Shown here: piece by piece, positions 3,427 to 63,000 of the stretch
Layout of the letters: each line of letters begins with the position of its first letter
Position numbering within the stretch: position 1 is the stretch's first letter
Source of the DNA: Echinarachnius parma
Taxonomy: Eukaryota > Echinodermata > Echinoidea > Clypeasteroida > Echinarachniidae
DNA: 64,000 bases
Assembly (NCBI GenBank): GCA_037951105.1
Contig: JBAMJV010003053.1
Coordinates: forward strand, 1-64,000
Direction: 5' to 3'
The notes under the pieces: generated by a model
Databases searched by the model: none
Told to the model about the DNA's origin: nothing
What the model saw: only the letters and a program-made list of their open reading frames with translations
Translations under genes and position numbers: made by a program

Positions 3427-3774
3427 TTAAAGGGGTAGTACAGTTTTGGTAAGGCTGAACTTTAGTAACCAAACCTTAATAAACTAATGGTTATAACTCC
3501 ACCATGCTCGAAAGGTATGCAAAATTACAACGACTTAGTAAAACGCCAGTTATCATTAAAAAAGAGTCATTTAAACACAAAAGGGCGCTTTTCTAAAAAG
3601 GCATTGGTTTCAACCATTTTCATACAAAATTATGCATGTGGTGTTTTATTGGAATGATGATTAGATAGAGAGATCATCAACAACTATTCCAAAAATGATT
3701 TTGAAAATTTTTGAAAAAGTGCAATCATTTTAAAAATATATTTTTTTTTTTTTAAATCATATAATTATTTGGGC
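3427..3774 (+). mobile_element. TTAA MITE family (GGGGTAGTACAGTTTTGG), left half only
   Basis: It begins TTAAAGGGGTAGTACAG and matches the first half of the full-length copies at 24203 and 32246. It stops exactly at the palindromic centre of that MITE (ATTATTTGGGC), where the right-hand 15-mer array begins. The other half is missing. Confidence 0.7.
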
Positions 3775-4166
3775 ATTTGTCTGCGGAGCATTTGGCGGCG
3801 GAGCAATTGTCGCGGAGCAATTGTCGGCGGAGCAAATGTCGCGGAGCAATTGTCGCAGCTTCGAAGCATTTGTCGGCGGAGCAAATGTAGGCGGAGCAAA
3901 TATCGGCGGAGCAAATGTCAGCGGAGCATTTGTCGGCGGAGCAATTGTCGGCGGAGCAAATGTCGGCGGAGCATTTGTCGGCGGAGCAAATGTCGGCGGA
4001 GCATTTGTCGGCGGAGCAATTGTCGGCGGAGCATTTGTCGGCGGAGCAATTGTCGGCGGAGCATTTTGTCGGCGGAGCAGATATCGCGGAGCATTTGTCG
4101 CGGAGCATTTGTCGCATTTTTCGGAGGCAAATGTCGCGGAGCATATGTCGGCGGAGCATATGTCAT
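3774..4166 (-). repeat. 15-bp minisatellite, right array (inverted copy)
   Basis: Tandem GTCGGCGGAGCAATT units, the reverse complement of the left array. Irregular landmarks are shared with the left array in mirror order: a doubled GCGGAGCATTTGTC without the extra GGC, a GCATTTTTCGGAG unit near the outer edge, and a GCTTCGAAGC unit near the inner edge. The arrays are thus an inverted duplication rather than independent expansions. Confidence 0.9.
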
Positions 4167-5648
4167 GGAACCGAAAATAACACCCTTTAGCTGCTATTTT
4201 TGTTTTTAAAATAAATATTGTTGATTTGGTATATATTTGTCCATAATCGGCTGTTGTTACCATGGTTACACGAGTACAGTGTAGTGCAAAAAAAAAACAT
4301 TCGTCTTGCTGAGGCTTTTCGGTGTTGTGCATATTAGTTCTGCAATTGAGTTGTTTTGTTTTTAATACTGAGTCAGACAATTTGTATAGACCTTTATGGT
4401 CTCCAGGTACATGTAATAAGATATGAAGGGCATGAAGGGTGCGTTCCTCGCGATCAAGATGGTGTTCGGATCAAGATAGTACGCTCTGCACCTATTACAG
4501 TATATGTCCCGAATATTGTGTACTTCAGTAAGACACTTATTACAGATAATGAGCATGATCTTGATACTGTTTTAAACATATCATGGACACCCAGTATGAT
4601 TCGAATTCGCTATATGCATGGCATGCGCGTCACTATGCAGCTGACTGGAATGCTCCACGTGGAGTGGAATTAAGTTGATTTTTAGCGTTTGATTATGATA
4701 AATGCAAATACAGGACAGACACGACATCTACGCGGACTACATAATGATGGTGGAATATTCATCACATTACAAGAAATGGTGTTTCTTTTTGGTATTTTGT
4801 TTATAACTGGAATTGAAGGTGTCCCGAGATTGACGCAATCATTTGGTATACAAATCCTCTCATAAGATTACACATTTTTGAGACACCCTGTATAGCATGA
4901 GAAATTATGCCAAAATACCCGTTTTGTGGATATCTAATGCTGACTTCCAAGAACTTTTTGTTCAGATACGGTATACACTTGAAATTTTCAGGGAGCATTG
5001 TTGATATAATTGGACAGTTTTTTGAAAAGTATTAATTTAACTGCTATTACAATTAATGATTTATGCGTAATTATGTAGATCAATAATTTCATATTTTTTG
5101 GGGGAAATGCATACAATTTGAGTTTGGGGCTAAAAATGACCGTGTTACATAATCCTAAACCTCATGGTGTTTGGTATCGGATTATAGGATATTTGATTGT
5201 CTTTAATATGATTGCAAAATAATGTTGATATCAGGTGTCGTTTTGGGAAATCTTGCAACTTATCTATAGAAATACAAAGAACGGCTGCCTTTTTGGACGC
5301 CATCTTGGATTTGGAGGTGTTCGCAACAAATATTTTGAGGTAGACCTCTGAATTATGTTGTCTCATTCAAAATACTTGCAATTAGAATCGGTTTAAACTT
5401 GTTGTGGAGATCTGGAACCTAAAGTCACTTTTTCGACATTGGCCCTCTTTTTACGCTTGATATTTCACTTACCACTTCATACAGAGACCGAAGTTCGCAC
5501 TGAGATTTGTAAGTATTGCTTGAGTCGTGCGTTTTCGACTCGACTACCACTGCGATAGATAGGGCCGCTAGCGCAGGCTAGTTTGGGAGTTCAAACATGC
5601 CAAAGTAAGAAATTGCCAACTCTGCGTTACTAAGTGGCCCATATATAT

Positions 5649-35290: not shown

Positions 35291-35425
35291 AGAAATTTAC
35301 GTGTTCATCGGAAAGCCTGTCATTTGACATTATCAACGGTCAATGCACGGAAATGGTGGGTGGGGCTGCTGAGTGTGTCTGTAAGGCTGGATGGACCTTC
35401 GGGAGCGATGGCCAAACGTGTGAAG
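35291..35425 (+). CDS. Internal exon encoding a degenerate EGF-like domain
   Basis: The exon is 135 bp, bounded by ACTTTTACAG (AG at 35289-35290) and the donor GAAG|GTTTGTG. It is phase 1-1 like the EGF exons at 43-63 kb and ends with the same C-E-G pattern. The product has FTC at the start, then GQC, ECVC and QTC, matching EGF cysteines 1, 3, 4, 5 and 6. Cysteine 2, expected in the SLSFD stretch, is absent, and the DVNEC calcium-binding start is replaced. It may be a structural variant or a decaying exon. Its strand and phase fit an upstream module of the same gene. Confidence 0.65.
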
Positions 35426-43121: not shown

Positions 43122-43208
43122 ATGTGAACGAGTGCACAGTGAGTAATCCTTGTGACACCACGAATGGAGATTTCACCAACATCGATGGATCGTATCAGTG
43201 TACATGTA
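43122..43208 (+). pseudogene. 5' part of a cbEGF exon interrupted by transposon (type 1)
   Basis: Acceptor AATTTCAG at 43114-43121, then the usual DVNEC start. The exon breaks inside the C4-x-C5 region at TGTACATG|TA. The third cysteine codon is TTC (Phe) instead of TGC, so this copy had lost, or has since lost, a disulfide partner. The remaining 42 bp lie at 53809-53850. 87 + 42 equals exactly 129, the length of the intact exons. Confidence 0.85.
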
Positions 43209-43279
43209 CACACTAAAAAAAGGGTCAATCTTACACCTATATAGGGGCAAGTCGTTGCCACACTGGGATCACCTATATA

Positions 43280-43980
43280 CAGGCGCGCCGGAAGCAGTTT
43301 TGGATTGGGGGGGGCAAAACCCGAAGAGGGCTCATGTGTTTAGGGGCTCATGCCCAACCACACTCACAGGGTTGCCAACCCCCCCCCCCCCCCCTCCCAC
43401 GGTCAAGGGAGCTTTTGCATTTTTGGACTTTGGACAAACCATATGCCAAATTTGTATGATTCAACATCATAACTTTCAGCTAAAAATGAGTCCCGAGGGA
43501 GCGAAGCGACCGAGGGCTGGGGCAGAGCCAGAGGGGAGGGTCTGGGAGGGGGTATCCCCCTCCCACGGGGAAGATTTTGCATTTATTCACTTGTAATGGT
43601 GCGATTTGGTGCACGTCACACAAACAGTAGAGCAATAACAGCCTACACAAGAAGTACCTGGACTGGTACAGAAAAACCCATCCCAGACCTACCAAATGCA
43701 AGTTACACAACAAACTGAGATAATTTGTTTGCGCGCGAAGCGCGCAGCGAAAATTTTAAATGGATGAATAACTCAGTTTTTAAACGTTAGAATTAATAAA
43801 TACTGGCTGATACATTTAATTTGTTCCTTTCCTTTTTCTTTCTTTCTTTCTTTTTTCTTCCTTTTTTTGAGGGGGGAGGCTTTTTTGGGGGGGCAAAAAC
43901 GCGTTTTGCCCCCCCACTTTTTGGATTGGGGGGGGGGGGGGGGCGGCCGCCCCCCCTGCCCCCCACTTCCGGCGCCTATG
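43280..43980. mobile_element. hAT-like G-tract element with exact 8-bp target duplication
   Basis: CCTATATA flanks it on both sides (43272-43279, 43981-43988). The ends CAGGCGCGCCGGAAG and CTTCCGGCGCCTATG are imperfect inverses starting with CA. An 8-bp duplication is characteristic of hAT elements. The interior contains GGATTGGGG tracts, a palindrome around GGCAAAAACGCGTTTTGCC and T/C-rich runs. It encodes no protein, so the family is non-autonomous. Confidence 0.75.
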
Positions 43981-44064
43981 CCTATATAAGTGCAACATTT
44001 CACCTTTTGGTAAGGTTGCAGAGTTGATCCTTTACCGTTTTGCACCTTTAACCCGTTTACTACG

Positions 44065-45600
44065 ACTATATAAGCACCATTTCCTACCCTGAAAACGAGA
44101 TTCTTTTCACTGTGCGAGAAACCGAAGCCCCCAACAAAAGCCCAGCGGTCTGCATGTGGCCGCGTGTGCGAGCCAAGACCGAATTAGCGAACGCACTATT
44201 CATCAGTGCATGCAGCTGGTGACGTCTTTCGCGCATGCGCAATTCATTCCTTGTTTTGACATCAGCATGAACAGAGGCAAATTATACGGAGCTCTCTCCG
44301 CTCCCCACGCCACGCAGCCACTGAGTAGCCTGGCCTCGATCGCAGCGGATTGCCCGCCCGCGCTGTCCGGCCTGGTGGCTGTGTGGCGCTGGCTGCTCGG
44401 CATGCACAGCTAGCTAGCCTGTCAAATCAGCATGGCAGATGTGTATCGAAAGGCTTTCCGTTTGTTTCTGAAATGATTACAGAGACATGTCGTTACCTAA
44501 CATTCTCTCCACCTCGAATAAAACAAAACAAACAACAATCACACAATAACTGAACCGCTAAAACGGCCTCAAAACTAATATAAGATACAGTTAGTATTGA
44601 GTAGATCCAAAATGATTACCATTACGAATTGATGACTATATCCTTCTAGCCTTTTTTTCAGGTACATTTTATATCGGCGATATCCCGATCCGTGATACTA
44701 AAATACTTTTTTGCAGTGCTCCTATATTATGTGTGAGAGTGGTTTGTGTGTGTGGATGCAGATACGTTTGTTTCTGTTTATGTATTGGTAAACATAAATA
44801 TCATATTTGCACTATTTTATATTCTTGCATCATTTCATCAATTTTCCTTGAAAATAAAACAATAAGGATAAATGTACAAACAGTTACATATTTTCAACGT
44901 GAATTCATAATTATTTTAAATCTAATTCATAATAATGTATCTTATATGTAAAGATAATTGTTTCAATATAATTACGATGAACAAATACAATCGTAAATAA
45001 ACTTGAGTAGAATCGTATAACATACATGTAGACTGAGTTATGGGCCTAATTTATTTTTTGTTTACTAATAATCTCAGCCTCTGCTTTAGCATTACAGTAT
45101 TTTTGTTAGCAGTATACAAATGTTTTATGTCAGAGCGGTACATCGTGGCAGTTCGGTAAAAGAACAATCATAATTATAGCTACGATGTAAATCTGATCGT
45201 AAAATGAATGAATGGATGAATAACAAGATAGATGATATAATTATGGATATTTGTTTACAAATATAAACTAATAAGATAATCAACTAATGAACGAACGAAT
45301 GTATGAGTATACGAATTAATTAATTTTTTGAATAATACATGACTGTGTTCATTATAATTTGTGCGGGGCTCTGGGTGGGTTGACTATTTTAGGGAAAAGG
45401 TTTTTCGCAGTGAAAAATGGGTTTGACGGGCATTATGACTTCATAATTTATCACACAGGAATCTTACGAATTGATCTTCGAACTGTGTATTGTTCGCTCC
45501 ATATAATGATAACATTATGATAATATATATAGGGAACATATTTCTCAGATGCTGCGGTATTTTGTTGAAGCCCCTAAATGCAAAACAAATATGTTCTATA
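44065..45600. other. piggyBac left non-coding region
   Basis: There is a GC-rich patch at 44130-44420 with overlapping ORFs on both strands (85 and 66 codons) that resemble nothing known, then AT-rich DNA. No supported gene. Confidence 0.4.
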
Positions 45601-45603
45601 AAC

Positions 45604-45855
<252 letters not shown>

Positions 45856-46294
45856 ATAATCTATGAAAAAATCTATGAAATATATATTATATAAAAAAGT
45901 CAATAAAATAAATTTGGACTCTATAATTCATTGGTAAAGTCTTTATTCAATTCAAGAAAGGATTAAATAGTTATTAATTAGTTTTGAAGGAATATATATA
46001 TATATCTGTATATATATATTATTTACGTATTGATATATTTATTCATGTATTTATTTATAATTTTACAAATATTTGTTTAACCTAATCTTTACTGGTGCCT
46101 ACTGATGCGCTCCTTTGTGATACATTTTGAATGGATGGTGTTGATGTGTCATAAGCGTATATAAACACACACAATATATGTTTATAATCATGGCGAGTTT
46201 TTGTCAAGGCATATTAGAACGATTGAAATAAAATGAATATGTTTTGCTTGCAAAAGCATGTATTTAAAAAAGGACAGTATTCTTTTATATGTTT

Positions 46295-47370
46295 TAGTTC
46301 ATCATCATTATCATCATTACCATCATCATCATCGATATCATTATCATCATCATCATCGTTATCATCATCATTATCATCATCGTCATCATTATCATAATCG
46401 TCATCATCTTCATCAGTATAATCATCGTTAATTTCATTCATCAGCATCATCGACACGATCATCATTATCATCAGTATCATCATCGTGAATTTCATTCTTA
46501 TCATCATCTTCATCAGCATCATCGACACGATCATCATCATTTTCATCATTTTATCATTATCATCATCATCGTCATCATCATTATCAGCATCATTATCATC
46601 AGTATCAGCATCATTATCGTCATCATCAGTATCATAATCGTCATCATTATCATACTCGTCATCATTATCACACTCGTCATCATCTTCATCAGTATCATCG
46701 TGAATTTCATTCTTATCATCATCATCTTCATCAGCATCATCGACACGATCATCATTTTCATCATTTTATCATTATCATCATCATCATCGTCATCATCATT
46801 ATCAGCATCATTATCATCAGTATCAGCATCATTATCGTCATCATCAGTATCATAATCGTCATCATTATCATACTCGTCATCATTATCACACTCGTCATCA
46901 TCTTCATCAGTATCATCATCGTGAATTTCATTCTTATCATCATCATCATCTTCATCAGCATCATCGACACGATCATCATCATCATCGTCATCATTATCAG
47001 CATCATTATCATCAGTATCAGCATCATTATCGTCATCATCAGTATCATAATCGTCATCATTATCATACTCGTCATCATTATCACACTCGTCATCATCTTC
47101 ATCATCGTGAATTTCATTCTTATCATCATCATCATCGACACGATCATCATCATTTTCATCATTTTATCATTATCATCATCATCGTCATCATCAGTATCAT
47201 AATCCTCATCATTATCGTCATCATCATTATCATACTCGTCATCATCTTCATCAGCATCATTTTCATTACTATCATCAGCATTATCACCATCGATATCATT
47301 ATCATCATTAATCGTCATCATCATTATCAGTATCACCTTCATCATCATCATTATCATCATCAGTGATGAA
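46295..47370 (+). repeat. (ATC)n compound satellite with ~200-300 bp higher-order repeat
   Basis: Trinucleotide ATC/ATT/GTC mixtures are punctuated by recurrent phrases such as GTGAATTTCATTCTTATC and ATCATCGACACGATCATC, recurring about four times in the same order. Long Asp- or Met-rich ORFs are by-products. Confidence 0.9.
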
Positions 47371-48064
47371 CCAGTTACCGACATCATTGCAACTTATCCA
47401 ATCAGTGTAAGCACAAATTTAAGCAGAGAACATTCCATTTAGTTATGTAATCATACAAAAACACATCACTTTATTCCATGAATTTACTCAACTTGTCGAT
47501 GTCATTACTAGGTGACACCCAATATTTATTATGAAAGATGCATACTACTACATATTCAAACTCCATGATGATTGCACATTACATTTCATTTTTGTGCATT
47601 TATTATGATGACAAATAATTCTTATCACACAATATATCATCCTCCTGATATTTATATCCATGCTGTGAGTATAGTTCACTTGAGTACTTCAGTATATTCC
47701 ATGCTCATGTTGATACAAGATCTACATAATTAATTCAAAGATATGTAGTATGTATTTTTGCATATGAAATATCAAGTAATTACATTTTCAAATTCAAATT
47801 ATGTACATCAAAATATTGCAAAAGGCAAGTCTTGATACATATTTCTTCCAATGGTCATGAATAAATTATTACAATTTAGAAAAAATCAATTCATGAAGAA
47901 CATGTCTGTGAGTAGATACGAGAATTGACAGCAATGTACAATTTTACACAATTTATAAATTACAAGATCATGTAGTTGGACAGAAAGCATACCTATAATA
48001 ACAAAATATAAAGTAAAGGTACACAAAGTATGAGTCAAAATAAATACTGTACTAATCTGAAGTG

Positions 48065-48530
48065 TTCAATGTCACTTGTTGATCCGTCATAAGATTTACA
48101 CAAAACATTTCATACATTTACATATCACATGCTGGGAATATCTCATGTCGGAAGAAATATTTTCATGTCAAGGTAATAACAATAAGTCACTCGTACATGT
48201 AGATCCATGAGATGCAGATACACGCTGGAAATATCACATGTCCATAAATAGATATTGAATTCTTTCACCTCAACGTAATAAACAAGTGTTCTTATAAAGT
48301 CACTCGTAGCGGCTCCTCATCATGAGCAGATACATGCTGGAAGAATCACATGTCCATCAAGGAAAATTTAATTATTTCATCACAAAGTAATAAAACATTT
48401 AGCGTTCTTATAAGGTCATTTGTAACCTTATGAGCAGATACATGCTGGGAATATCAAATGTCCATAAAGAAATATTCAATTCTTTCACCTCAATGTAATA
48501 ATCAGTAAGTGTTCTTATAAAGTCGCTTCA
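48065..48530 (+). repeat. Four degenerate ~115-bp direct repeats inside piggyBac
   Basis: Units share GCAGATACATGCTGGAA, ATCACATGTCCATAAA and TAATAA...GTTCTTATAAAGTC. They lie downstream of the transposase stop codon, in the element's 3' region. Confidence 0.65.
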
Positions 48531-48843
48531 CGGTATGTATGTGAGTGAAGAGACACATTATACAAATAAACTCAATCATTGTAATAAATAAGGAAAGATC
48601 GTGTATCCACAAATAAATCAATTTGATCATCTATACATACAATTAGTGAAATAATGTTATGGCAACAATGGCATAGATATGAAAACATGAATTAAATACG
48701 ATGCATCAAATGAAAGCAGATCTATACAGAATAATTAACCCATTTTGTTATTCCAAATTATTCAATGTATTTATGTTTCATGTGTCTTTGGTAACTGATG
48801 ATTACATGTAGCCTAACAACAAGGATTAAGATCAAGTTCTGTA

Positions 48844-51122
48844 CTATCCTGAGCGATAATTTGCTTTGGTGTGGTATCGTTCAAAGCAAAGGATGTGGAG
48901 AGGGACTTCACACTTTCTGCACATAAATCTTGATTCAGGGCGTGATGTTTGATCTCCTTTTTGCTTCCGTTTTCCTAGCGGCTTAGGCTTGCACGCAACA
49001 CATGGTCGAGTTGCGTCTGGCTTATTTGCTGTAGGAGGGACATGCATGGGCCAATGTTGAGATTCTGAAAATTCCAGCCTTAGTACGTTTTCCTTATTGC
49101 ATCTCCTCCCAGATCGGACTGGTCGCGGTCGGTCCTGCGCAAGCTGGTTGCCAAAGGCAATCATCTGCTCGATGAGGTCTATGACAAAGTTTAAATGGTC
49201 TACATTCCTGTCTGATACATGGCAGTACACAATGTACGCATTCGTCACCGCCAAATCGTTCAGATGAAATATGAGTTTTTTATACCACTTGAGAGATTTT
49301 CTCATATCTGCGTATTTGTTAGTTAGAAAGTCTGACAAGTCTACTCCACCCATGTATTTGTTATAATCGAGAACAACGTCTGGTTTTTGAATGTTTTCCC
49401 CTGTCACAGGATGTTTTTTCTGTGTATCACTGAAGGTGTTGGTATGGAGAGTGCTCAGCATTGTTACATCACGTTTATCAAACCACAGCATGGCGAGCAG
49501 TTCCTTAGATCGTCTGAAGATGGACATCCCACGGGTTAGCTTTTGAGCCGGTTTCAGATTTTTAGGCATTTCACGTCTATTTGCTCTAACAGTTCCACAA
49601 GCATGGGTCCTCCGCTTGAAAAGTTCTGCAAAAAGTGTAGGACTTGTGTACCAATTGTCCATGAAAAGGCGGTATCCTTTGTCCAAAAGTCCTGTCATCA
49701 TTGACATCACAAGTCCAACAATGGTGTCCTTAGCTTTACCGGTGTAAAGTCTAAATTTCCACGTATATCCAGTCGGATCACATATCTTATACGCTTTCAT
49801 GCCATACTTTGCTGGCTTGCGGGGGTTATATGTCTTGAAGCTCAGGCGCCCATAGAACTTGATGAGGGCCTCGTCGATCGCGATGGAGCGAAATGGTGTG
49901 AAGACTTTATGGAACGCTGTCGTTACTGCGTCATAAAATGGCCGGAGTTTGAAGAGCGGGTCGTAGCTTGGGTCACTGCGCTGCTTGGCCTGGTTGTTAT
50001 CATTGAAGTGAAGGAAGCGGAGAAGAAGAGTGAAGCGGTCCCTCGTCATAGTCTGGCCGAAGAAAGGGGTGGCAAGGATGTTCCTGGTAGACCAGTAGAG
50101 ATGGATTGCAGGTTTCCCGACGACTCCCATGAGCATGCATAACGCCCAGAAGATGATGAGCTCTCCTGCAAAATAAAAAGAAAGAAAAAACAATTCTTCA
50201 ATACTTCATACTCTTCATACATGTAAAAATGACACGAGTCATAAACTTCACTATAAATATCAAACTAACATTTGAAAAGGTCTTTTGTCAACACTATGCC
50301 ACATACATGTAGTTACAGAACATCTTCTTAGTCTTACAATCTTCTTACATTACAATTGAAAATAAATAAGATAATAGAAACCCTTTTTTATTCGTATGCT
50401 GAAGAAAAACAGAAATAATACATATCAATTGTATGTTTAGTAAAGGTAATTTTGATATTATTTCTGGATTAACAAAATACAAGTCTTAGACTGTACATAC
50501 CTGCACTAGTTCTGGTCCAGTTCTTGGCTGGTGATGATGGCGATGGAGGGGATTCTCTCACTCTCAGGACCGAAGACGCGTATTTGTTGGTCTCAACTGC
50601 AACTTCCTCAAATGTTTCCTTTGACACAAATTTGAGATAACAGTCCAGCGGAGTTGAAGTTGGTGACAGGCCTGTATCAGGACTGATACCAGGGGTGCCT
50701 GTAAACTCGAAGTGTTGAGGTCCGTCAGATGGGTTATCCTCCCAGGTCCGCCCCACTGGCTCTGCAGCTGCGACTCGACGACGCTTGTTCCCGCTATCCC
50801 CCGGCACGGAAGCGGTCGCAATGGGCTCGGCTGCATGTTGGTCCCCCCTAACTCCCCGGTCGGTTCGGTCTGGATCGAGGGTATCGTTACGAGCGCTGGC
50901 GGGGTTTACATGAGTATTTCCATTCGTGGACTCTGCTGTATTCTCCGATTCAAAGAAATCATCGAACGTCGTGGTTTCATATTGTTCATTTTCTACGTCC
51001 GACGAATACTCTTCTTCGCTTGATAAGTCCATTTTATCAAATTCATTTTCAGAGTCCGAGTCAAGGATCGCTTCTCGAGCATCTTCAACGCTAAACAGAG
51101 ACTTCGTTCCATGACGAGACAT
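48844..51122 (-). CDS. piggyBac transposase (PGBD-like), apparently intact, two exons
   Basis: The protein excises and inserts DNA at TTAA. Exon 1 is 51122-50501, starting ATG and ending GTGCAG|GTATGT. Exon 2 is 50165-48844 after TTTTGCAG. Both junctions are phase 1 and the join gives NWTRTSAGELIIFWALC, with 647 residues in total, typical for the family. There is an acidic Ser/Glu-rich N-terminus (about 1-60). ETNKYA lies near 185, then the YWS and RF...LHFND block. Catalytic Asp candidates are D305 (IDEALIKFYG), D377 (MDNWYTS), and D483 with D486 (GGVDLSD). The C-terminus has a Cys/His zinc-binding domain: C596-x2-C599, C623-x2-C626, H631-x2-C634, H639. There are no stops or frameshifts. It lies inside perfect TIRs with TTAA flanks, which argues for a mobile element rather than a domesticated host gene. 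The intron is 335 bp. Confidence 0.92.
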
Positions 51123-51910
51123 TTTGAGATACGATGTTACATTGATAGTGATAAGCTATTACCAACGAATTGAGAACTAATTTGTGAAACAAACTACTCA
51201 TGAAAATCAAAACGTTGTACTAAATAGTACAAATCCGAGACTTTATGGCACGATGCGCAGTTGATATCCGACAAGCTTGCATTGAAATAATGGGAATGAC
51301 TAGATCGAGACTAGCTAATATCCTAAATAATAAACCGGCCCGGTAGCCTGTATACGCATGAATGACCTGGAGATCAGAGCTAGGGCTTACCGCGAGCGAG
51401 ACGGCTTATAACACTGTAAGCTATTCAATTCTGGGCCCAGTACCGTGTATACGCGTGAATGAATATCGATCGATCTCATTGTGTAAGTACGTGTGCGCGC
51501 GTGCCGTGTACAAACGATACACAGAGCGAGTTTGGAATTCGCTGCTTGTAAAATCATAATGTCCGGCTTACACAGTTCTAGGTAATAATAGACCCAGCGA
51601 AACCAAAATCCAGTCAAAATTGCATAAACTCACTTTGTATACGAATATCCTGAAAGAGGACTCATGCATTTCCATGCTAAACTTGTAATAAAACGAAAAA
51701 TACACAACTACAGTCGGTAAAAATTGAGATGCATGTAGCCAAGAGATCAAGGTTTGTATCCATATAATTTATATTTAATTTAGAAGGAAAATAGATGTAT
51801 TTTTATGCAATTAAACTAGCCCTTTCTCGGACCCGAGAAATCTCGGTTCCCGTCTGTGAGTAGGCTCCACGGGAACCGAGAATTCTCGGGCCCCGTAGTA
51901 AACGGGTTAA

Positions 51911-53806
51911 GGTGCAATATTGCATCTTCAGGAAAAGGTGCAAAGTTACACTGAGAAGTAGATGAGCACAATTGCACTTTCAAGGTGCATCTTTGAAATG
52001 AGAGAAATTCAAATTGAAAATTGAATTTAAATTTAATGTAATTTAAAGTTGCACCATTTGAAAAAGGTGCAAATATGTAATTTCATAGTGCAACATAACA
52101 CCTTTGAGTTAAGTGCAAAGATGCACCTAAAATGGTAGAAAGTTTCACTTTTAACAAAGGTTTGCTAAGTAAACTAAGCAAAATATTTCAAGGTGAGCAT
52201 TTGTAAAAAAAAACCTCAAAAAAACAGGAAAATTTGTAGATAGTACAAACGACCGTTTATTAACAGTTATGAATGTTGATAATTGTAAATAAAACATAAT
52301 TTCCATAAACTAACATTTCTGTTATTCTACAGAATAAGTTCTGTAAAATCAATAGAACGGTGAAAAGATATAATTCTAAGGGCCAAGAAAAATATTTTAC
52401 ATCTATTGTTTTTGTTATTAGAAAGTATTGTCTTTTTACAGGCGAATTGCATATTTCCCAAGCCTGTCTACAAACTTATAGGCCGACTTGTAATCATACA
52501 TGGAATATTTTAATTACTGGATATTGAGTGGTTTAACGGTAATAATTACGGTATATTTGTATTTAGTGTGTACAAGAAACCGTAGGTTTTTTAACAGGTT
52601 CCCTGTTTTTCCACAGACCGGGGTAGTAAACAAAACAGCCTGTGTTGTCAGCATACATATTGTTTTTTGTTTACAGAAGAAATTTTCTTTTTTTTACAGG
52701 AACATTTTCGCCTATCAAATCAGAGCCAAGCGAACATTTTGTAACAAAAAAACAGGGACAGTCGTAGGTAGCATGAGAAAACTGTTTATTAACATTAATG
52801 AATAAAGGTAATTGTAAATAAAAGAAATCATTCTAAGAAGACTTCTCTTTAAAAAAAAAGAGTTATATTCCAGGGTTTGATGGACCAATTGCATAAACAA
52901 TGTTATTCAAGCAAATCAAGTCAATAGACCGTCCAGCGGTGACCTGGCGACGAACTATTCAATTTAATTTATATGAATTCGATTTAATATGTAGACAAAA
53001 TCGTACACAAATCAGCTGTTGCTGTGTCGGACAAACCCCTGCAAAGCTTTTCAACTTGCCATGAGCAACCATTGATGATAGGCTACGCATGAACTGGTCT
53101 TTAGAGCATCGAATCAATGACGTCGCATTATGTTGTTATTACTCCTATACTGTACACTCTGCACCATTGTCGAGTCTGCACTTTCCGCCTTATTTTTTCT
53201 CTTTGCTATTTGTATGATTCGCGTGTGATAGCTTATCAAGCAAATTACCAATCAGAGGGGCTGTATCGAAACTATGTGTGACTTAGAAATATTTTCATAG
53301 TAATTTATTTCCAATTTCTCTATTTTTCAAATCCCTTCATGCATAATGAGCTATTACTTCACAAAAATAAATCATAGATTAGTTATGGAAACATTTGGCA
53401 TTAAAACACGAAATACATGTTTTGTCTCTCTGTGAGTGAATTATTTCTCTTGGACCCTGTAATTGGCTGGCGGCCTTGCTTTGACCGTAGTTGTCATGAA
53501 TATACATTTTCAGTAAATATGAAAAGACAGTTGGTATATTTTCATTATAAAACCATAAACGTATACACTCATTATGTTGCACGATAACATAGAGTTTATT
53601 ATGAATGGAATATTGATAGAGGATCGTAGACAACCAATTGTGCAGTATGGCATGGTAAAGGAACAAGACTAAGAAAGGTGGGATTTTGCACTTTAGCAAA
53701 AATGCACCTAAATATGTGCACAAAATGGTGCAATTTTACTCCTTTGCCGAGTCTGCACATTTTGCGTTACTTTGCACCTTATTTTAACCCTTTTTTTCTT
53801 AGTGTG
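51911..53806. other. Right part of the TA-flanked outer element
   Basis: AT-rich sequence with recurrent GGTGCAA, GCACCTT and AAAGGTGCAAA phrases near both ends (51910-52150 and 53690-53790). ORFs at 52500 and 53379 are not recognisable. No transposase domain is seen. Confidence 0.5.
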
Positions 53807-53808
53807 TA

Positions 53809-53850
53809 ACACTGGATGGAGGATGGCAAGCGACAACTCAACATGCGAAG
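53809..53850 (+). pseudogene. 3' part of the transposon-split cbEGF exon
   Basis: The sequence after the second TA encodes NTGWRMASDNSTCEG and is followed by the donor GAAG|GTATGTC. It completes the exon begun at 43122. The reading frame is kept across the join. It is functional only if the 10.6 kb insertion is absent in other alleles or spliced around. Confidence 0.85.
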
Positions 53851-54093: not shown

Positions 54094-54217
54094 ATGTGAA
54101 CGAATGCACAGTAATCCTTGTGACACACGAATGGAGATTGCACCAACACCAATGGATCGTACCAGTGTACATGTAACACTGGGTTAAGTCTGGATAGCGA
54201 AAACTCAACTTATGAAG
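54094..54217 (+). pseudogene. Decayed cbEGF pseudo-exon
   Basis: An acceptor remains (TTTTTATAG), but the exon has lost four bases in ACAGT(GAGT)AATCC and one in GACAC(C)ACG. It gains an in-frame stop where GGGTGG became GGGTTAAG, the last Cys codon reads TAT, and the donor GT is replaced by AA. It is certainly not used as a normal EGF exon. Confidence 0.85.
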
Positions 54218-54442: not shown

Positions 54443-54571
54443 ATGTGAACGAATGCACTGTGAGTTATCCTTGTGACACCACGAATGGATATTGCACCAA
54501 CACCAATGGATCGTACCAGTGTACATGTAACACTGGGTGGAGTCAGGATAGCGACAACTCAACTTGTGAAG
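54443..54571 (+). CDS. cbEGF exon (type 3), intact
   Basis: The exon is 129 bp, phase 1-1, between TTTTGTTAG and GAAG|GTATGTC. All six EGF cysteines are present; DVNEC starts the domain. Differences from neighbours include SYPC and GYC (Tyr for Asn and Asp) and SQDSD. The sequons NGS and NST are kept. This is the only intact type 3 exon before 61602. Confidence 0.88.
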
Positions 54572-54802
54572 GTATGTCTTACAATGTCATAATATTTATT
54601 TTAATACGGTCATACGGATACTGTCATAATTTATCTACATACGACATATGTGACTGTTTCAATAATATTTTTACTAGAATGATCGACTTATACTTTCATC
54701 ACTTCTTCGTGTAGTTCAATTACTACTGCAACTAATAATAAATATTGATAATAATAGCATGACTAATGTTGATTATATACTTAAACACTTGATTTTTTTA
54801 AG

Positions 54803-54862
54803 ATGTGAACGAATGCACAGTGAGTAATCCTTGTGACACCATAAATGGAAATCGTTTCAAGT
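54803..54862 (+). pseudogene. Truncated cbEGF exon (type 3) followed by poly-C
   Basis: Starts normally (DVNECTVSNPCDT) after an AAG acceptor. It departs at AATGGAAATCGTTTCAAGTG, before cysteine 3, and runs into about twenty Cs. The same break occurs at 59518 and, slightly altered, at 57878 and 62172. Confidence 0.8.
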
Positions 54863-55700
54863 GCCGCCCCCCCCCCCCCCCCCCCGTCTCCAAATAATTT
54901 GCCAAAACAATAGAAACATAAAGGGTAAGGGGTAAATTTTATCAAGTTATGAATAACGACCATTATCTTACATTATGAATATCGACCCTCTTCTCACATT
55001 AGAAATAGCGGCCTTCTTCTTAAATCATGAATAGCGACCCTTGTCTTACCTTATGATTGGCGACCCCCTTCTCATATTATGAATAGCGACATTCTCCTTA
55101 CATTATGAATAGCGACCCTCTCCCCAAATAATTTTCCAAAACAATAGCAAACATAAGGGGAAAGGAGTAAATTTGATCAATTAATGAATAGTGACTCTCT
55201 TCTTAGATTATGATTAGCGACCCTCTTCTTACATTATGAATGGCAACCCCTTCTTATATTATGAATAGCGACCCGCTTCTTACTTTATGAATAGCGACCC
55301 CATTCTTTTATATTCATGAATAGCCACCGATAATTCGTATTATGAATAGCAATTGTGATGAGTAGTGACCCCCTATATGAATTATGAATCGCACCACTTC
55401 TTCATGTTCATGAGTAGCGACCCTGATTTCGTAGTATGAATTGTGGTCCTTATGAGTAGTGACCCTCAATGTGAATCATGAATAGTGACCCTAATCTTAC
55501 ATTATGAATAGCGGTCCTCGTAAAAACGGTCCTGATGACGTAATGAATAGCGACCCCTGTTGTGTTTTATGAATAGCGGTCCTTAAGTATAGGGAAATAA
55601 CACATTGTGAATAGCGGTTCTTAAGTATATTGAAATAACACATTATGAATAGCGGTCCTTATGAAAAGCGGTCCTTATGAATAGCGTGATTATCCCGTAA
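54863..55700 (+). repeat. EGF-locus satellite S1 (ATGAATAGCGACC units)
   Basis: The leader CCAAATAATTTGCCAAAACA...GGGTAAGGGGTAAAT is followed by about thirty 20-30 bp units of two sorts, ATGAATAGCGACCCTCTTCT and ATGAATAGCGGTCCT. It ends at GATTATCCCGTAA, where normal intron sequence resumes. Confidence 0.85.
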
Positions 55701-55847
55701 GTCCTGTAATATAACTTATGAATTTACTACTATCAATACTTGTATACTTCTTTAACAAATTACTACTGCAACTTATAAATAATAATAATATAACATGCCA
55801 ACATTCGATAATATACTTAAATAACCAGCTCTACTCGACATTTTCAG

Positions 55848-55976
55848 ATGTGAACGAATGCACAGTGAGTAATCCCTGTGACGCCATGAATGGAGATTGT
55901 ACCAACATCAATGGATCGTACCAGTGTTCATGTAACACTGGCTGGAGTCTGTATAGCGACAACTCAACTTGTGAAG
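55848..55976 (+). CDS. cbEGF exon (type 1), intact
   Basis: The exon is 129 bp, phase 1-1, between ACATTTTCAG and GAAG|GTATGCC. Six cysteines and the DVNEC calcium-binding start are present. Distinct residues are DAMNGDC, NINGSY and SLYSD. The upstream intron piece, from the satellite end to the acceptor, is the type 1 context also found at 43122, 57165, 58696 and 62872. Confidence 0.9.
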
Positions 55977-56191
55977 GTATGCCTTATAATTTCCTATTTT
56001 GATATAGATATTGTCACAATTTATCTACATACGACGTAATTGTTTCAATAATTTGTGTACTACTTTTATTGACTTATACTTGAATCACTTCTTCGTGTAG
56101 TTCAATAACTACTGCAACTGATAATACACATTGATAATAATAACATCAATAATGTTAATTATAAACTCAAATACTTGATTCGTTTTCATAG

Positions 56192-56320
56192 ATTTGAACG
56201 AATGCAGAGTGAGTAATCCTTGTGACACCACGAATGGAGATTGTACCAACACCAATGGATCGTACCAGTGTTCATGTAACACTGGGTGGATTATGCATAG
56301 CGACAACTTAACTTGTGATG
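56192..56320 (+). CDS. cbEGF exon (type 2), intact
   Basis: The exon is 129 bp, phase 1-1, between GTTTTCATAG and GATG|GTACATC. It begins DLNEC, with ECRVSNPC (Arg unique here), and has the IMHSDNLTC ending shared with the type 2 exon at 57521. All six cysteines are present. The donor GTACAT is weaker than in other copies. Confidence 0.88.
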
Positions 56321-56504
56321 GTACATCTTAAAATTTCATTATATATATTTGTAATACGGATATTGTCATAATTTATCTACATACGACACATGTATTTTTT
56401 TTTCAATTTATTTTGTTACTAGTATAATCGACTTATAGTTCTATCACTTCTTCGTGTAGTTCAATTACTACTGCAACTTATAATAAATATCGATTAAAAT
56501 GGCA

Positions 56505-57020
56505 TAAATAATACATTATAAATAGCGACCTTCTTCTTATATTATGAATAGCGACCCTCTTCTTACATTATGAATGGCGACCCCTTCTTACATTATGAAT
56601 AGCGACCCTCTTCTTACATTATGAATAGCGACCCTCTTCTTACATCATGAATAGCGACCCCATTATTTTATATTCATGAATAGCCACCAAGAATTCGTAT
56701 TATGAATAGCGGTTCTGATGAGTAGTGACCCCCTATATGAATTCTGAATAGCATCCCTTCTTCATGTTTATGAGTAGCGAACCTGATTTCGTAGTATGAA
56801 TTGCGGTCCTCATGAGTAGTGACCATCAATGTGAATTATGATTAGTGACCCTAATCTTACATTATGAATAGCGGTTCTCGTAAAAAACGGTCCTGATGCC
56901 TTAATGAATAGCGACCCCTATTGTGTTTTATGAATAGCGGTCCTTAAGTATAAAGAAATAACACATTATGAATAGCGGTCCTCATGAAAAGCGGTCCTGA
57001 TGAATCGCGAGATTACCCAG
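56505..57020 (+). repeat. EGF-locus satellite S2, without leader
   Basis: Joins intron sequence (GATTAAAATGGCATAAATAA) directly to ATAAATAGCGACC units, so the truncated type 3 exon and the leader present in the other copies are deleted here. Units alternate GCGACC and GCGGTCC sorts in the same order as S3. Confidence 0.85.
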
Positions 57021-57164
57021 TAATTTCTGAAATATAACTTATGAATGTACTACTATCACTACGTGTATACTTCTATAACAAATGTACTACTGCAACTTAT
57101 AAATAATAATAATGATATAACATGCCAAAATTCGATAATATAATTAAATAACCTACATTTTCAG

Positions 57165-57293
57165 ATGTAAACGAATGCACAGTGAGTAATCCTTGTGACA
57201 CAACGAATGGAGATTGCACCAACATCGATGGATCGTACCAGTGTTCATGTAACACTGGGTGGAGTCTGGATAGCGACAACTCAACGTGTGGAG
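57165..57293 (+). CDS. cbEGF exon (type 1), intact
   Basis: The exon is 129 bp, phase 1-1, between CATTTTCAG and GGAG|GTATGTC. DVNEC start, NIDGSY, SLDSDNSTCGG ending; all six cysteines. The acceptor region is shorter than in the other type 1 copies (CCAGCTCTACTCGA is missing). Confidence 0.9.
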
Positions 57294-57520
57294 GTATGTC
57301 TTACAATTTCATAATATCTATTTCTGATATGGATTTTGTCATAATTTATCTACATACGACATATGAAATTGTTTCAATAATTTTGTTACTAGTATGATCG
57401 ACTTATACTTCCATCACTTCTTCGTGTAGTTCAATAACTACTGCAACTAATAATACATATTGATAATAATAACATCAATAATGTTAATTATAAACTCAAA
57501 TACTTGATTCGTTTTCATAG

Positions 57521-57649
57521 ATTTGAACGAATGCACAGTGAGTAATCCTTGTGACACCACGAATGGAGATTGCACCAACACCAATGGATCGTACCAGTGT
57601 TCATGTAACACTGGGTGGATTATGCATAGCGACAACTTAACTTGTGAAG
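57521..57649 (+). CDS. cbEGF exon (type 2), intact
   Basis: The exon is 129 bp, phase 1-1, between GTTTTCATAG and GAAG|GTATATC. Nearly identical to the exon at 56192, including IMHSDNLTC, which marks a recent duplication. DLNEC start; six cysteines. Confidence 0.9.
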
Positions 57650-57877
57650 GTATATCTTACAATTTCATTATATATATTTGTAATACGGATATTGTCATAA
57701 TTTATCTACATACGACATATGTAATTTTTTTCAATTTATTTTGTTACTAGTATAATCGACTTATAGTTCTATCACTTCTTCGTGTAGTTCAATTACTACT
57801 GCAACTTATAATAAATATCGATTAAAATGGCATAAATAATGCTGATTATATACTAAAATATCTGATTTTTGTTATAG

Positions 57878-57937
57878 ATGTGAACGAGTGCACAGTGAGT
57901 AATCCTTGTGACATCATGTATGGAAATTGTACCAATG
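57878..57937 (+). pseudogene. Truncated cbEGF exon (type 3)
   Basis: A normal acceptor (TTGTTATAG) and DVNEC start, then ATGGAAATTGTACCAATG and a run of Cs. Cysteine 3 is just retained, but the rest of the domain is missing and no donor follows. Confidence 0.8.
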
Positions 57938-58545
57938 CCCCCCCCCCCCTCTCCCCAAATAATTTGCAAACAATAGCAAACATAAGGGGAAAGGAGTACA
58001 TTTGATAAATTAATGAATATCGACTCTCTTCTTAGATTATGATTAGCGACCCTCTTCTTACATTATAAATAGCGACCCTCTTCTTACATTATGAATGGCG
58101 ACCCCTTCTTACATTATGAATAGCGACCCTCTTCTTACATTATGAATAGCGACCCTCTTCTTACATCATGAAAAGCGACCCCATTCTTTTATATTCATGA
58201 ATAGCCACCAAGAATTCGTTCTATGAATAGCGGTTCTGATGAGTAGTGACCCCCTATATGAATTATGAATAGCATCCCTTCTTCATGTTTATGAGTAGCG
58301 AACCTGATTTCGTAGTATGAATTGCGGTCCTCATGAGCAGTGACCATCAATGTGAATTATGATTAGTGACCCTAATCTTACATTATGAATAGCGGTTCTC
58401 GTAAAAAACGGTCCTGATGCCTTAATGAATAGCGACCCCTATTGTGTTTTATGAATAGCGGTCCTTAAGTATAGAGAAATAACACATTATGAATAGCAGT
58501 CCTCATGAAAAGCGGTCCTTATGAATCGCGAGATTACCCCGTAAT
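57938..58545 (+). repeat. EGF-locus satellite S3
   Basis: Poly-C, leader CTCCCCAAATAATTTGC and ATGAATAGCGACC/GCGGTCC units. Very similar to S2 over the last ~480 bp, supporting duplication of the whole block. Confidence 0.85.
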
Positions 58546-58695
58546 TTCTGAAATATAACTTATGAATGTACTACTATCACTACTTGTATACTGCTATACA
58601 AACATTACTACTGCAACTTATAAATAATAATAATGATATAACATGCCAAAATTCGATAATATAATTAAATAACCAGCTCTACTCGACATTTTCAG

Positions 58696-58824
58696 ATGTG
58701 AACGAATGCACAGTGAGTAATCCTTGTGACGCCTCGAATGGAGATTGCACCAACACCGATGGATCGTACCAGTGTTCATGTAACACTGGATGGATTCTGT
58801 ATAGCGACAACTCAACTTGTGAAG
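58696..58824 (+). CDS. cbEGF exon (type 1), intact
   Basis: The exon is 129 bp, phase 1-1, between ACATTTTCAG and GAAG|GTATATC. DVNEC start; DASNGDC, NTDGSY and ILYSDNSTC are its distinguishing residues; six cysteines. Confidence 0.9.
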
Positions 58825-58973
58825 GTATATCTTATAATTTCAGCATATCTATTTTGATATAGATATTGTCACAATTTATCTACATACGACGTAATTGTTT
58901 CACTAATTTGTGTACTAGTATGATCGAATTATACTTGAATCACTTCTTCGTGTAGTTCAATAACTACTGCAAC

Positions 58974-59084
58974 CACGGGCGTAGCAAGTTACGTAATACC
59001 TATTCAACTGGGGGGATGGATGAATAGATCACCCCCCCCCCCCCCACAGTTGAATGGGTATCAATGACATGTCTACGCCCGTGT
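58974..59084. mobile_element. 111-bp hairpin MITE in an EGF intron
   Basis: Ends CACGGGCGTAG and CTACGCCCGTG with CTGCAAC duplicated on both sides (58967-58973 and 59085-59091). The eighth base differs (A/T), so the duplication is 7 bp or a mutated 8 bp, consistent with a hAT-type element. The interior pairs ACCTATTCAACTG with CAGTTGAATGGGT around G and C runs. Confidence 0.7.
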
Positions 59085-59164
59085 CTGCAACTAAAAGGAA
59101 ATATTGATAATATTAACATCAATAATGTTAATTATATACTCAAATGCTTGATTCGTTTTTATAG

Positions 59165-59293
59165 ATTTGAACGAATGCACAGTGAGTAATCCTTGTGACA
59201 CCAAGAATGGAGATTGCACCAACATCGATGGATCGTATCAGTGTACATGTAACACTGGATGGAGTCTGGATAGCGACAACTCAACTTGTGAAG
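59165..59293 (+). CDS. cbEGF exon (type 2), intact
   Basis: The exon is 129 bp, phase 1-1, between GTTTTTATAG and GAAG|GTATGTC. DLNEC start, DTKNGDC, NIDGSY, SLDSDNSTCEG ending; six cysteines. Unlike the other type 2 copies it has the common SLDSD ending, so gene conversion between types is possible. Confidence 0.9.
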
Positions 59294-59517
59294 GTATGTC
59301 TTACAATTTCATAGTATCTATTTCTAATACGGATATTGTCATAATTTATCTACATACGACATATGTAACTGTTTCAATAATATTTTTAATGGAATGATCG
59401 ACTTATACTTACATCACTTCATCTTGTAGTTCAATTACTACTACAACTAATACTAAATCTCGAAAATAATATCATGACTTATGTTGACACTATACTCAAA
59501 TACTTGATTTTTATTTG

Positions 59518-59577
59518 ATGTGAACGAATGCACAGTGAGTAATCCTTGTGACACAATGAATGGAAATCGTTTCAAGT
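59518..59577 (+). pseudogene. Truncated cbEGF exon (type 3), acceptor lost
   Basis: Same break as 54803 (AATGGAAATCGTTTCAAGTG, then CCGCCCCC). In addition the acceptor AG is changed to TG (TTATTTG|ATGTG), so it should not be spliced in. Confidence 0.8.
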
Positions 59578-59790
59578 GCCGCCCCCTTTCCCCAAATAAT
59601 TTGCCAAAACAATACAAAAACATAAGGGTAAGGGGTAAATTTTATCAATTTATGAATAGCGACCCTTTTCTTACATTATGAATAGCGACCCTCTTCTTAC
59701 ATTATAAATAGCTGCCTTCTTCGTATATTATGAATAGCGACCCTCGTCTTACATTATGAATGGCGACCCTTCTTACATTCAAGAAATGTC
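59578..59790 (+). repeat. EGF-locus satellite S4, short
   Basis: Leader and about five ATGAATAGCGACC units, then a junction (TTACATTC|AAGAAATGTCTTAC) to intron that matches the sequence after the pseudo-exon at 54217. The junction marks another recombination breakpoint. Confidence 0.8.
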
Positions 59791-59939
59791 TTACAATTTC
59801 ATTATATCTATTTCTAATACGGATATTGTCATAATTTATCTACATACGACATATGTAATTGTTTCAATTATTGTTGTACTAGTATGATCGACTTATACTT
59901 CCATCACTTCTTCGTGTAGTTCAATTACTACTGCAACTA

Positions 59940-61531
59940 AACCCCTCAAAAAAAGTTCGGAAACTCAACTTTGATCGATTGTATAACTTGTATTGTCAAA
60001 TTGTATTTGTTCTTTTTAGTGTCATTGCAATGCATGATGATTTCCCTTTAAAATGGTACATTATTTGTCATTCATTTCAAATCAGGGAATACGCAGTGCG
60101 TTTCAGAATGGAGGACGGTCAGAAGTCAAATGTCGCAAAACGGGCCGAAAGTATTCAGTTGGGAAATTTGACTCTTGTGCCGTATTTTTTAATGTTCAGG
60201 TTGTATCGAAGATTGTAGCGTGTTCAAATGATTTAAACTTATCAAATTTGGTATCATTTTAAAGCCTATGTGTCTATCTTTTCAATACGGTTATGTCCGT
60301 AACAATTTTATTAACAGGTTAAGTATGGTACAGCTGAATATGGGGAGGGCCGAAAGGGAAATGTTGCAAAATGCATTTCTTTTTGTGAAATTGAAGGCGT
60401 TGCATCGAAAAACGACTATTGGAGGGATGTTTTAGGGTTGTAAATTGCATAATCATCAGTAAATTTAGTATCATGTGAAAGCGTTTTTATTTTTCTTTAA
60501 AATCATGTCTCACCTGTAATAATTATGCTATTGGGGTGTGTGCAGTAAAACCGGATATGGGGGTCTATAAATGCTATGAATTTAAGACCATGGCTTCTTG
60601 TTTCAAGATTCCGGTAAGATATTGTTGTATTAAGCATAACTCTATCATCATTACGTTTTGCACTATCGGAAAGCTCGTTAATTTACCTTTAATATGGTGT
60701 CTCATTTGCAATGATTATGCTGAATGTGAGTGTGTAATACAGGAAACTCACAAACTTGATGTATTGAAAATGCTTCAAATTTCTCTAAACCTACGCAAAC
60801 TGGCCAGAACTGGCATATTAGCGCCCTCTTCGACCGTGTAGGTATGCCGTTATTACCACGTATCAAACGGTAGAAAGTCGACCTAACAACGTGTCATTTT
60901 GAGCCCCATACATTTAGAGGTACTACACACACCTCAATCACATAACCACTATGAATGGGGCATTATTTCATTGACAAATTAACACGCTTTAACATAATGT
61001 TGAATTTGATAATGATTATGTAAAGTAAAGTACTAAGATATCCCCACAAAAGTCGTTTTTGGATGCAACGCCTTCAATTTCACACAATCAAATGCATTTT
61101 GCTTACATTTTGCTGTCGATCCTCCCAAATATTCACCTTAATTGTACCTACCCGGCTTTCATAATTATTCCAAGTGAGGTGTCATTGGAAAGATAATTAA
61201 ACAGGCTTTTGTCTGATACCATATTCAACAGTATCTCTTCATTGACAAGATATTCATCGTCGAAAGAATTTGAACTTGAGAAAGACCGTGATATGGTTGT
61301 CAGACCTTCCAACTGAAGTTTGTTGGCGCATTTTGCGACATTTCACTTCTGACTTTCCCCCATTCTCAAGTATACTGCACATACCTCGTGCTCGCGATGC
61401 TTACGAATTTGGTATCATTCTAAAGAGGTATACACACCCTTTCAAGTGATACCAAATATAACCATTATGATTTCTTAATAAAATAGATATAATCGATCAA
61501 ACTTGAGTTTCCGAACTTTTTTTGAGGGGTT
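59940..61531. mobile_element. 1.6 kb TA-flanked fold-back element in an EGF intron
   Basis: Ends AACCCCTCAAAAAAAGTTCG and CGAACTTTTTTTGAGGGGTT are exact inverses with TA outside each (59938-59939, 61532-61533). The arms pair internally, for example AAGTCAAATGTCGCAAAA with TTTTGCGACATTTCACTT and GAAATTGAAGGCGTTGCATC with its inverse near 61060. ORFs of 69-101 codons inside show no family. Tc1/mariner-type mobilisation is inferred from TA only. Confidence 0.75.
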
Positions 61532-61601
61532 TAGTATTGAATAATCATAATAATAGTATGAATAATATTAATTATATACTCCAATACTTGATTTATGTTA
61601 G

Positions 61602-61730
61602 ACGTGAACGAATGCACAGTGAGTAATCCTTGTGACACCACGAATGGAGATTGCACCAACACCAATGGATCGTACCAGTGTACATGTAACACTGGGTGGA
61701 GTCTGGATAGCGACAGCTCAACTTGTGAAG
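61602..61730 (+). CDS. cbEGF exon (type 3), intact
   Basis: The exon is 129 bp, phase 1-1, between TTTATGTTAG and GAAG|GTATGTC. DVNEC start, NTNGSY, SLDSDSSTCEG (Asn of the NST sequon replaced by Ser); six cysteines. Confidence 0.9.
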
Positions 61731-61930
61731 GTATGTCTTACAATTTCATAATATCTATTTCTAATGCGGATATTGTCATAATGTATGTACATACGACGTA
61801 ATTATGTAACTGTTTCAATAATATTTTTACTAGAATTATCGACTTATACTTCCATCACCATGATCACTTCTTCGTGTAGTTCAATTACAAATGCAACTAA
61901 TAATAAATAGTGTTAATAATAACAAGAATA

Positions 61931-62165
61931 ATGTTAATGTCTTACAATTTCATAATATCTATTTCTGATATGGATATTGTCATAATTTATCTACATACGA
62001 CATATGAAATTGTTACAATAATGTTGTTACTAGTATGATCGACTTATACTTCCATCACTTCTTCGTGTAGTTCAATTACTACTGCAACTAATATATTATA
62101 TTAATGATAATAGCATGAATAGTGCCGGGGAATAATGTTAATTATATACTCAAATACTTGATTTT
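61931..62165 (+). repeat. Duplicated EGF-locus intron segment without an exon
   Basis: TGTCTTACAATTTCATAATATC and TTATCTACATACGACATATG recur here as in the introns after each exon, but no EGF exon precedes this copy. It appears to be a leftover of a duplication whose exon was deleted. Confidence 0.65.
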
Positions 62166-62171
62166 TGTTAG

Positions 62172-62224
62172 ATGTGAGCAAATGCACAGTGAGAAATCCA
62201 TGTGACAGCATAAATGGAAATTGA
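62172..62224 (+). pseudogene. Truncated cbEGF exon (type 3) with stop
   Basis: Acceptor TTTTTGTTAG is present, but the start reads DVSKC (the calcium-binding NE is lost) and then SINGN followed by TGA and poly-C/poly-A. It is the most diverged of the four truncated copies. Confidence 0.8.
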
Positions 62225-62236
62225 ACTATTAGTGTC

Positions 62237-62252
62237 CCCCCCCCCCCCCAAA

Positions 62253-62286
<34 letters not shown>

Positions 62287-62695
62287 TTTGCCAAAACAAT
62301 AGAAAACATAAGGGGTAATGGGTAAATGTTTATCAATTCATGAATAGCGACTCTCTTCTTACACTATGAATAGCCATCCTCTGTTAACATAATAAATAGC
62401 CACCTTCTTATTATATTATGAATAGCAACCCTCTCCTTACATTATGAATAGTGACCATCTTCTTACATTATGAATAGCGACTCAGATTTCGTATTATGAA
62501 TAGCGGTCTTCATGACTAGTGACCCCTAATATGAATTATGCATAGCGCCCCTTTTTCATGTTTATGAGTAGCGACCCTGATTTCGTAGTATGAATAGCGG
62601 TCCTTATGAGTATTGACCCTCAATGTGAATTATGAATAGCGACCATAATCTTACATTATGAATAGCGGTCCTTATGAATAGCGAGGTTAATAACC
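62237..62695 (+). repeat. EGF-locus satellite S5
   Basis: C- and A-runs, (TA)n, leader TTTGCCAAAACAATAGAAAA and ATGAATAGCGACC/GCGGTCC units to GAATAGCGAGGTTAATAACC. Confidence 0.85.
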
Positions 62696-62871
62696 CCGTA
62701 ATTTCTTTAATCTAACTTATAAATGTATTAATACATCGTATACTACATGTACTATCACTTCTTGTATACTGCTATTAAAATTACTACTGCAACTAATACA
62801 TAATGATAATGATATGACATACACAATTTCTATAATATACTCAAATAACCGGCTCTACTCGACATTTTCAG

Positions 62872-63000
62872 ATGTTAACGAATGCACGGTGAGTAATCCT
62901 TGTGACACCGCGAACGGAGATTGCACTAACTCCAATGGATCGTACCAGTGTACATGTAACACTGGGTGGAGTCTGGCTAGCGATGGATCAACGTGTCAAG
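62872..63000 (+). CDS. cbEGF exon (type 1), intact, last of the array
   Basis: The exon is 129 bp, phase 1-1, between ACATTTTCAG and CAAG|GTTCGTG. DVNEC start, DTANGDC, NSNGSY, SLASDGSTCQG ending; six cysteines. It differs from the others in the final residues, and its donor starts GTTCG rather than GTATG, like the lone exon at 35291 (GTTTG). It may be an original boundary exon of the array. Confidence 0.9.

Follow-up and report, generated by a model that had tools for sequence, protein, structure and literature searches.

Transposons that are spliced out of host exons are represented by the Ds and dSpm alleles of maize. A related situation is found in Echinarachnius parma, where in a stretch of 64,000 nucleotides (assembly GCA_037951105.1, contig JBAMJV010003053.1, positions 1 to 64,000 of the forward strand; hereafter the window) one exon of a tandem array of EGF exons is split by an outer TA-flanked element, which itself carries a hAT-type miniature inverted-repeat transposable element (MITE) and a piggyBac transposon. 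As in the maize alleles, the element lies within an exon and has a usable splice site close to its terminus. Unlike in maize, splicing is here predicted only, and the strong site is a 3' site, with poor donors at the left edge of the insertion.

Each of the three elements can likewise be set against its superfamily. The outer element shares with the Tc1/mariner-type non-autonomous elements the TA duplication and the imperfect terminal repeats (CACACTAAG), but differs from them by a right-end unit of about 600 bp that is repeated in many copies. With the MITEs of the hAT superfamily the hAT-type element has in common an 8-bp target duplication and short terminal repeats beginning with CA(G/T), whereas a 178-bp stretch, found once in the window and in several tandem copies in its relatives, sets it apart. 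The piggyBac is typical of its superfamily in its TTAA target and duplication, in terminal repeats that start with CCC and in a transposase of the DDE_Tnp_1_7 type. However, the transposase gene has a predicted intron, and the distance between the left end and the transposase varies from 4.7 to 11.8 kb, the window copy having simple repeats there.

A survey of 69 invertebrate and 8 vertebrate small genomes gives 212 piggyBac types, 85 of them with intact copies and only 24 with more than five, and puts three intact copies from echinoderms on record (PMC10813416), so that an intact echinoderm piggyBac is not without precedent. If most copies of the family in the window are as intact as the four that were read, it would be unusually large by the figures of that survey. 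Among the papers listed, titles and the starts of abstracts revealed none on this locus or on this piggyBac; the three elements may already be named in Repbase or Dfam. The nesting as such is nothing out of the ordinary for transposons. New are the very young piggyBac family and the observation that five modules are damaged besides the split one, together with a predicted acceptor carried by a transposon, and of these subjects the young piggyBac matters more than the nested insertion. Intact and recently multiplied natural piggyBac families are worth trying for gene transfer and for work on how hosts control their transposons, and this one would be a native element in the echinoderms, a phylum in which stable transgenesis is recent (PMC11361634). 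In the nested insertion, successive waves of transposons within one exon can be read cleanly and checked, and the split module is a natural test of how well repetitive EGF genes tolerate a broken module.

The explanation that I regard as very likely is that of nested transposons in one EGF module, tolerated either through skipping, as the exons are of phase 1-1, or through use of an acceptor at 53803. The features concerned are the following.

35291..35425, plus strand: upstream diverged EGF exon, phase 1-1, likely skipping partner
43122..43208, plus strand: split EGF exon, 5' part, 87 nt, acceptor CAG, cysteine 3 replaced by Phe
43207..43208, no strand: outer element, TA target duplication, left copy
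43209..53806, no strand: outer non-autonomous element flanked by TA, contributing about 2.03 kb itself besides the two inner insertions
43280..43980, no strand: hAT-type MITE, 701 bp, duplication CCTATATA at 43272-43279 and 43981-43988
44052..51906, minus strand: piggyBac transposon, 7,855 bp, TTAA at 44048-44051 and 51907-51910
53803..53850, plus strand: predicted in-frame 48-nt exon, using the terminal acceptor of the outer element (CCCTTTTTTTCTTAG followed by TGTG)
53807..53808, no strand: outer element, TA target duplication, right copy
53809..53850, plus strand: split EGF exon, 3' part, 42 nt, donor GTATGT
54094..54217, plus strand: dead following module of 124 nt, with a frameshift and without its donor GT
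54443..63000, plus strand: remaining array, nine intact 129-nt modules and four truncated ones (54803, 57878, 59518, 62172)

In this explanation, a TA-inserting non-autonomous transposon would have entered one of the modules in an array of tandemly amplified EGF exons and later received, at two separate places, the hAT-type MITE and an autonomous-looking piggyBac, the latter belonging to a family that is very young and probably mobile to this day. The gene on this chromosome would tolerate the damage, because its modules are phase 1-1 exons that can stand in for one another. The spliceosome would join 35291-35425 to 54443 and leave out the split and the dead module; alternatively, it would use acceptor 53803 of the outer element and so include an in-frame half-module of 48 nt. 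The structure, the three target duplications, the relatives with unoccupied inner sites and the transposase frame being open are direct observations.

The two exon halves of 87 and 42 nt add up to 129 nt once one TA is removed, as an original prediction for this window had stated, and this is the length of the nine intact modules. Relatives were sought in the whole assembly (1.2 Gb, 14,790 contigs, the window being bases 1-64000 of contig C3052). The contig of this assembly that carries cox1 (C14600) shows 12 TGA within the frame and has the order cox1, tRNA-Arg, nad4L, cox2, tRNA-Lys (tRNAs called by ARAGORN, nad4L and cox2 identified by eye), which is the echinoderm arrangement and suggests an echinoderm host. 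Of 348 candidates for the outer element, rebuilt without both inserts, 40 were scored; all match it at 84-88% identity, none of the 40 exceeding 88%, and every one of them runs unbroken through both inner insertion sites; the window's own split copy is absent from these 40 places. These uninterrupted relatives bear out the predicted arrangement of a TA-flanked element with a hAT-like element and a piggyBac inside it. Of 30 loci fetched for the left end, 29 were kept (L062 failed the position filter), and TA precedes CACA.. in 24 of these, the remaining five being off-pattern; since two pairs have identical flanks and a third pair similar ones, the independent number is somewhat lower. An alternative boundary, with a 4-bp TGTA duplication and an element ending in TTAGTG, was rejected, as the relatives mostly read TA followed by CACA.. 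with unrelated preceding bases. For the right end with its flank, 40 places including itself were scored (of 533 candidates; identity 81-85%), and among the 39 others 35 end at base 53808 (TA), one a base short of it and three earlier. No transposase of the outer element was seen in L078, the one fuller copy read, where the largest open reading frame is 94 amino acids long.

The hAT-type MITE, which is without a transposase of its own, has 3,975 candidate places in the assembly, and among the 40 scored the long non-self matches have identities of 89-95%. The predicted 8-bp duplication is present in the window and is perfect (eight of eight bases) in eight of the nine other copies read at both edges, the ninth (C939) agreeing at two of eight bases. 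A third CCTATATA, at 43236, belongs to the sequence of the outer element, most relatives having it too. At the insertion site itself, 26 of the 29 relatives of the outer element read ACCTATAT once, and three read a variant.

The possibility that the exon halves were misjoined around repeats during assembly is extremely improbable. It could appeal to a locus rich in repeats and to the lack of a second allele for comparison, as none of the split-exon locus was found in the assembly among the 40 places scored of 65 candidates: all matches covering the upstream intron lie on the same contig, in the array's own modules, at 84% or less, and those listed for other contigs extend over the exon, some with about 20-25 preceding bases. 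However, a misjoin would not yield target duplications of the correct type at three levels, nor rebuilt inner sites that match uninterrupted relatives at the junctions. A scaffolding error joining 43208 and 53807, which the original prediction had raised as an objection to itself, is rejected on the basis of these target duplications and uninterrupted sites, and chance is set aside on the same grounds.

That prediction also held the order of insertion to be fixed by the nesting. For the outer element this stands: it inserted first, because the hAT-type element and the piggyBac both sit in it. It does not stand for the other two, which lie side by side at separate places in the outer element and are thus left unordered by the nesting. 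Family divergence among the listed matches, 5-11% for the hAT-type element versus 0-2% for the piggyBac, suggests that the piggyBac came later, though such an order reflects family age and not insertion age.

Within the piggyBac, the following features are recognised.

50501..51122, minus strand: transposase exon 1 (MSRHG...), predicted splice with last exon base 50501, then GTATGT
48844..50165, minus strand: transposase exon 2 (GELIIFW...RSG, stop), DDE_Tnp_1_7
45600..47370, no strand: simple-repeat tracts (TATC and ATC types) within a stretch of copy-variable length

The ends of the element are CCCGTTTACTACG and CGTAGTAAACGGG. Its left 589 bp are 99-100% identical in all 40 scored copies, the window's included (of 115 candidates), and the 2,276-bp transposase gene is present at full length, with 98-100% identity, in all 40 scored of 78 candidates. 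The exact 28-base left end together with TTAA occurs 55 times genome-wide, whereas its backwards control is not found at all. The TTAA duplication had been predicted for the window, and it holds there as well as in all ten other copies read at both ends, where TTAA stands at both sides between differing flanks. With the predicted intron removed, the window copy has an open two-exon transposase frame of 647 amino acids, and the frame is open at 645 amino acids in the three other copies read; relative to two of these, the window sequence has a 6-nt in-frame insertion as its sole difference, and relative to the third a single base differs as well. The protein matches the transposase profile PF13843 (E 2.2e-73), and its nearest solved relative is piggyBat (PDB 9c0f, E 5.6e-65), with which Asp residues align in the IDE, MDN and GVD stretches; these I take to be the catalytic ones. 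A candidate C-terminal cysteine-rich finger, PF13842, scores 21.6 bits against a cut-off of 24, and several cysteines align with piggyBat. In the 28 copies present in both listings (40 left ends, 40 genes), left end and transposase lie 4,679-11,797 bp apart, with a median of 6,776.5; the variable stretch was read in the window copy, and other insertions could contribute to the length elsewhere. The near identity of the copies points to a very recent, probably current burst of this family.

Near-identical copies could also result from recent segmental duplication or contamination instead of transposition, and the C4760 copy, which lies within a locally duplicated stretch with four empty sites on its own contig (97-99% over 107 bp), would agree with this; 36 of the 40 listed matches in that search are partial, most of them involving a dispersed repeat that lies in the right flank, and one of these is the copy's own. 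However, the differing flanks and two-sided TTAA of ten out of ten copies argue against it, as does the unoccupied relative of the C6065 copy (93% over 107 bp, 94.6% over 1,165 bp), an allele or paralogue whose similarity ends on both sides, so that I give this alternative hardly any credence. In the piggyBac flank of the C6065 copy, L106 (C6065:100500-102600) has about 1.6 kb extra compared with the empty relative L104, with 4 bases common to its edges.

Every splice outcome given here for the split exon is predicted, with splice sites scored against a consensus matrix. Reading through from the 5' exon half into the insertion adds two residues, followed by TAA. Skipping from exon 35291-35425 to 54443 preserves the frame, as foreseen in the original prediction: the nine intact modules and exon 35291-35425, the latter with AG and GT, are all of phase 1-1. 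The dead module at 54094-54217 must also be skipped, because it is frameshifted and has lost its donor. For the splicing via donor 53850 that had been proposed, acceptor 53803 of the outer element is a concrete candidate partner. It scores 6.7, versus at most 6.3 (at 35291) for the 15 native acceptors scored (16 are listed, one of them without AG) and 5.3 for the best in the array, and the exon predicted from it to donor 53850 would have 48 nt, phase 1-1 and no stop. Removal of the whole insert as an intron appears unlikely, because there is no good donor at the left edge; the best donor within 43181-43300 scores -1.7 bits, below the 11 native GT donors, and this candidate was rejected.

These results can be combined into one reading, the whole of which I judge to have an even chance of being correct: that a live, autonomous piggyBac family is spreading now and most of its insertions (at least 55 left ends) are polymorphic, that its internal simple repeats have changed by up to 7 kb and the coding part hardly, with the window copy a recent landing, and that the old outer element serves as a ready-made 3' splice site which keeps part of the broken EGF module in frame.

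Several observations weigh against the account given so far. Many matches to the right end of the outer element continue, ten bases on, into another right-end unit of about 600 bp, so that their common edge is in part the place where two units meet and not one created by a fresh insertion; the boundary is better judged from the left end. The piggyBac site, present once in the 29 relatives of the outer element, reads TGAC in 19, TGAA in 7, TGAG in 2 and TAAA in 1, and TTAA itself in none; as these relatives never read TTAA there, the window's outer element probably gained it by a base change before the piggyBac inserted. Present mobility is inferred from the identity among copies, and an allelic empty site for the window piggyBac was not found in the assembly. 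With respect to splicing, acceptor 53803 is only the fifth of 506 AGs in the insert, after 52700 (9.6), 43872, 52677 and 48979, and several donors in the insert also score well (52193 at 7.1, and good ones near 52700), so that by these scores cryptic exons from inside the insert would be as possible as the use of 53803. Finally, a gene region that is no longer used would likewise account for the missing cysteine and for the dead module next to it.

This last point leads to the alternative that all of the array on this contig is decaying as a pseudogene, in which case the insertion struck dead sequence and had no effect on transcripts. I consider this doubtful, though it deserves more weight than the alternatives discussed above. 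From 43122 onward the window contains 15 copies of the EGF module, of which six are broken: four truncated, one frameshifted and without donor (54094-54217, where 5 nt are missing) and the one split by the insertion, which has also lost its cysteine 3 through a change from TGC to TTC (the base is G in all nine intact copies). The lost cysteine and the dead following exon are both missing from the original prediction. The ratio of nonsynonymous to synonymous differences (pN/pS) among the nine intact modules, 0.51 over 36 pairs, is just moderately below one, and this too would suit a pseudogene; against the split exon it is 0.34 over nine pairs, the modules being too short for this ratio to tell decay before the insertion from decay after it. 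On the other hand, nine modules retain their frame, six cysteines and both splice sites (AG and GT), and beyond the window a six-cysteine EGF module and another EGF exon follow at 70626 and 72227 (splice sites unchecked), which argues against a dead array. The insertion is one of several injuries to an EGF array that seems to have kept on duplicating, and the damage of the four truncated modules seems to have been copied along with it.

In these truncated modules (54803, 57878, 59518 and 62172), a matching part of 51-59 nt is followed by C-rich sequence and a minisatellite (ATGAATAGCGACC...). Two further insertions are located in introns. The one at 59938-61533, within the array, is bounded by terminal inverted repeats (ACCCCTCAAAAAAAGTTCGGAAACTCAA and the complementary sequence) and edged by TAA and TTA, and the short one at 58974-59084 has the inverted ends CACGGGCGTAG and CTACGCCCGTG and is flanked on each side by CTGCAAC. 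Elsewhere in the window, tandem repeats that are open in several frames occur at 2330-2750 and 3715-4206 (SAEQLSAEQM..., GGANVGGAFV...).

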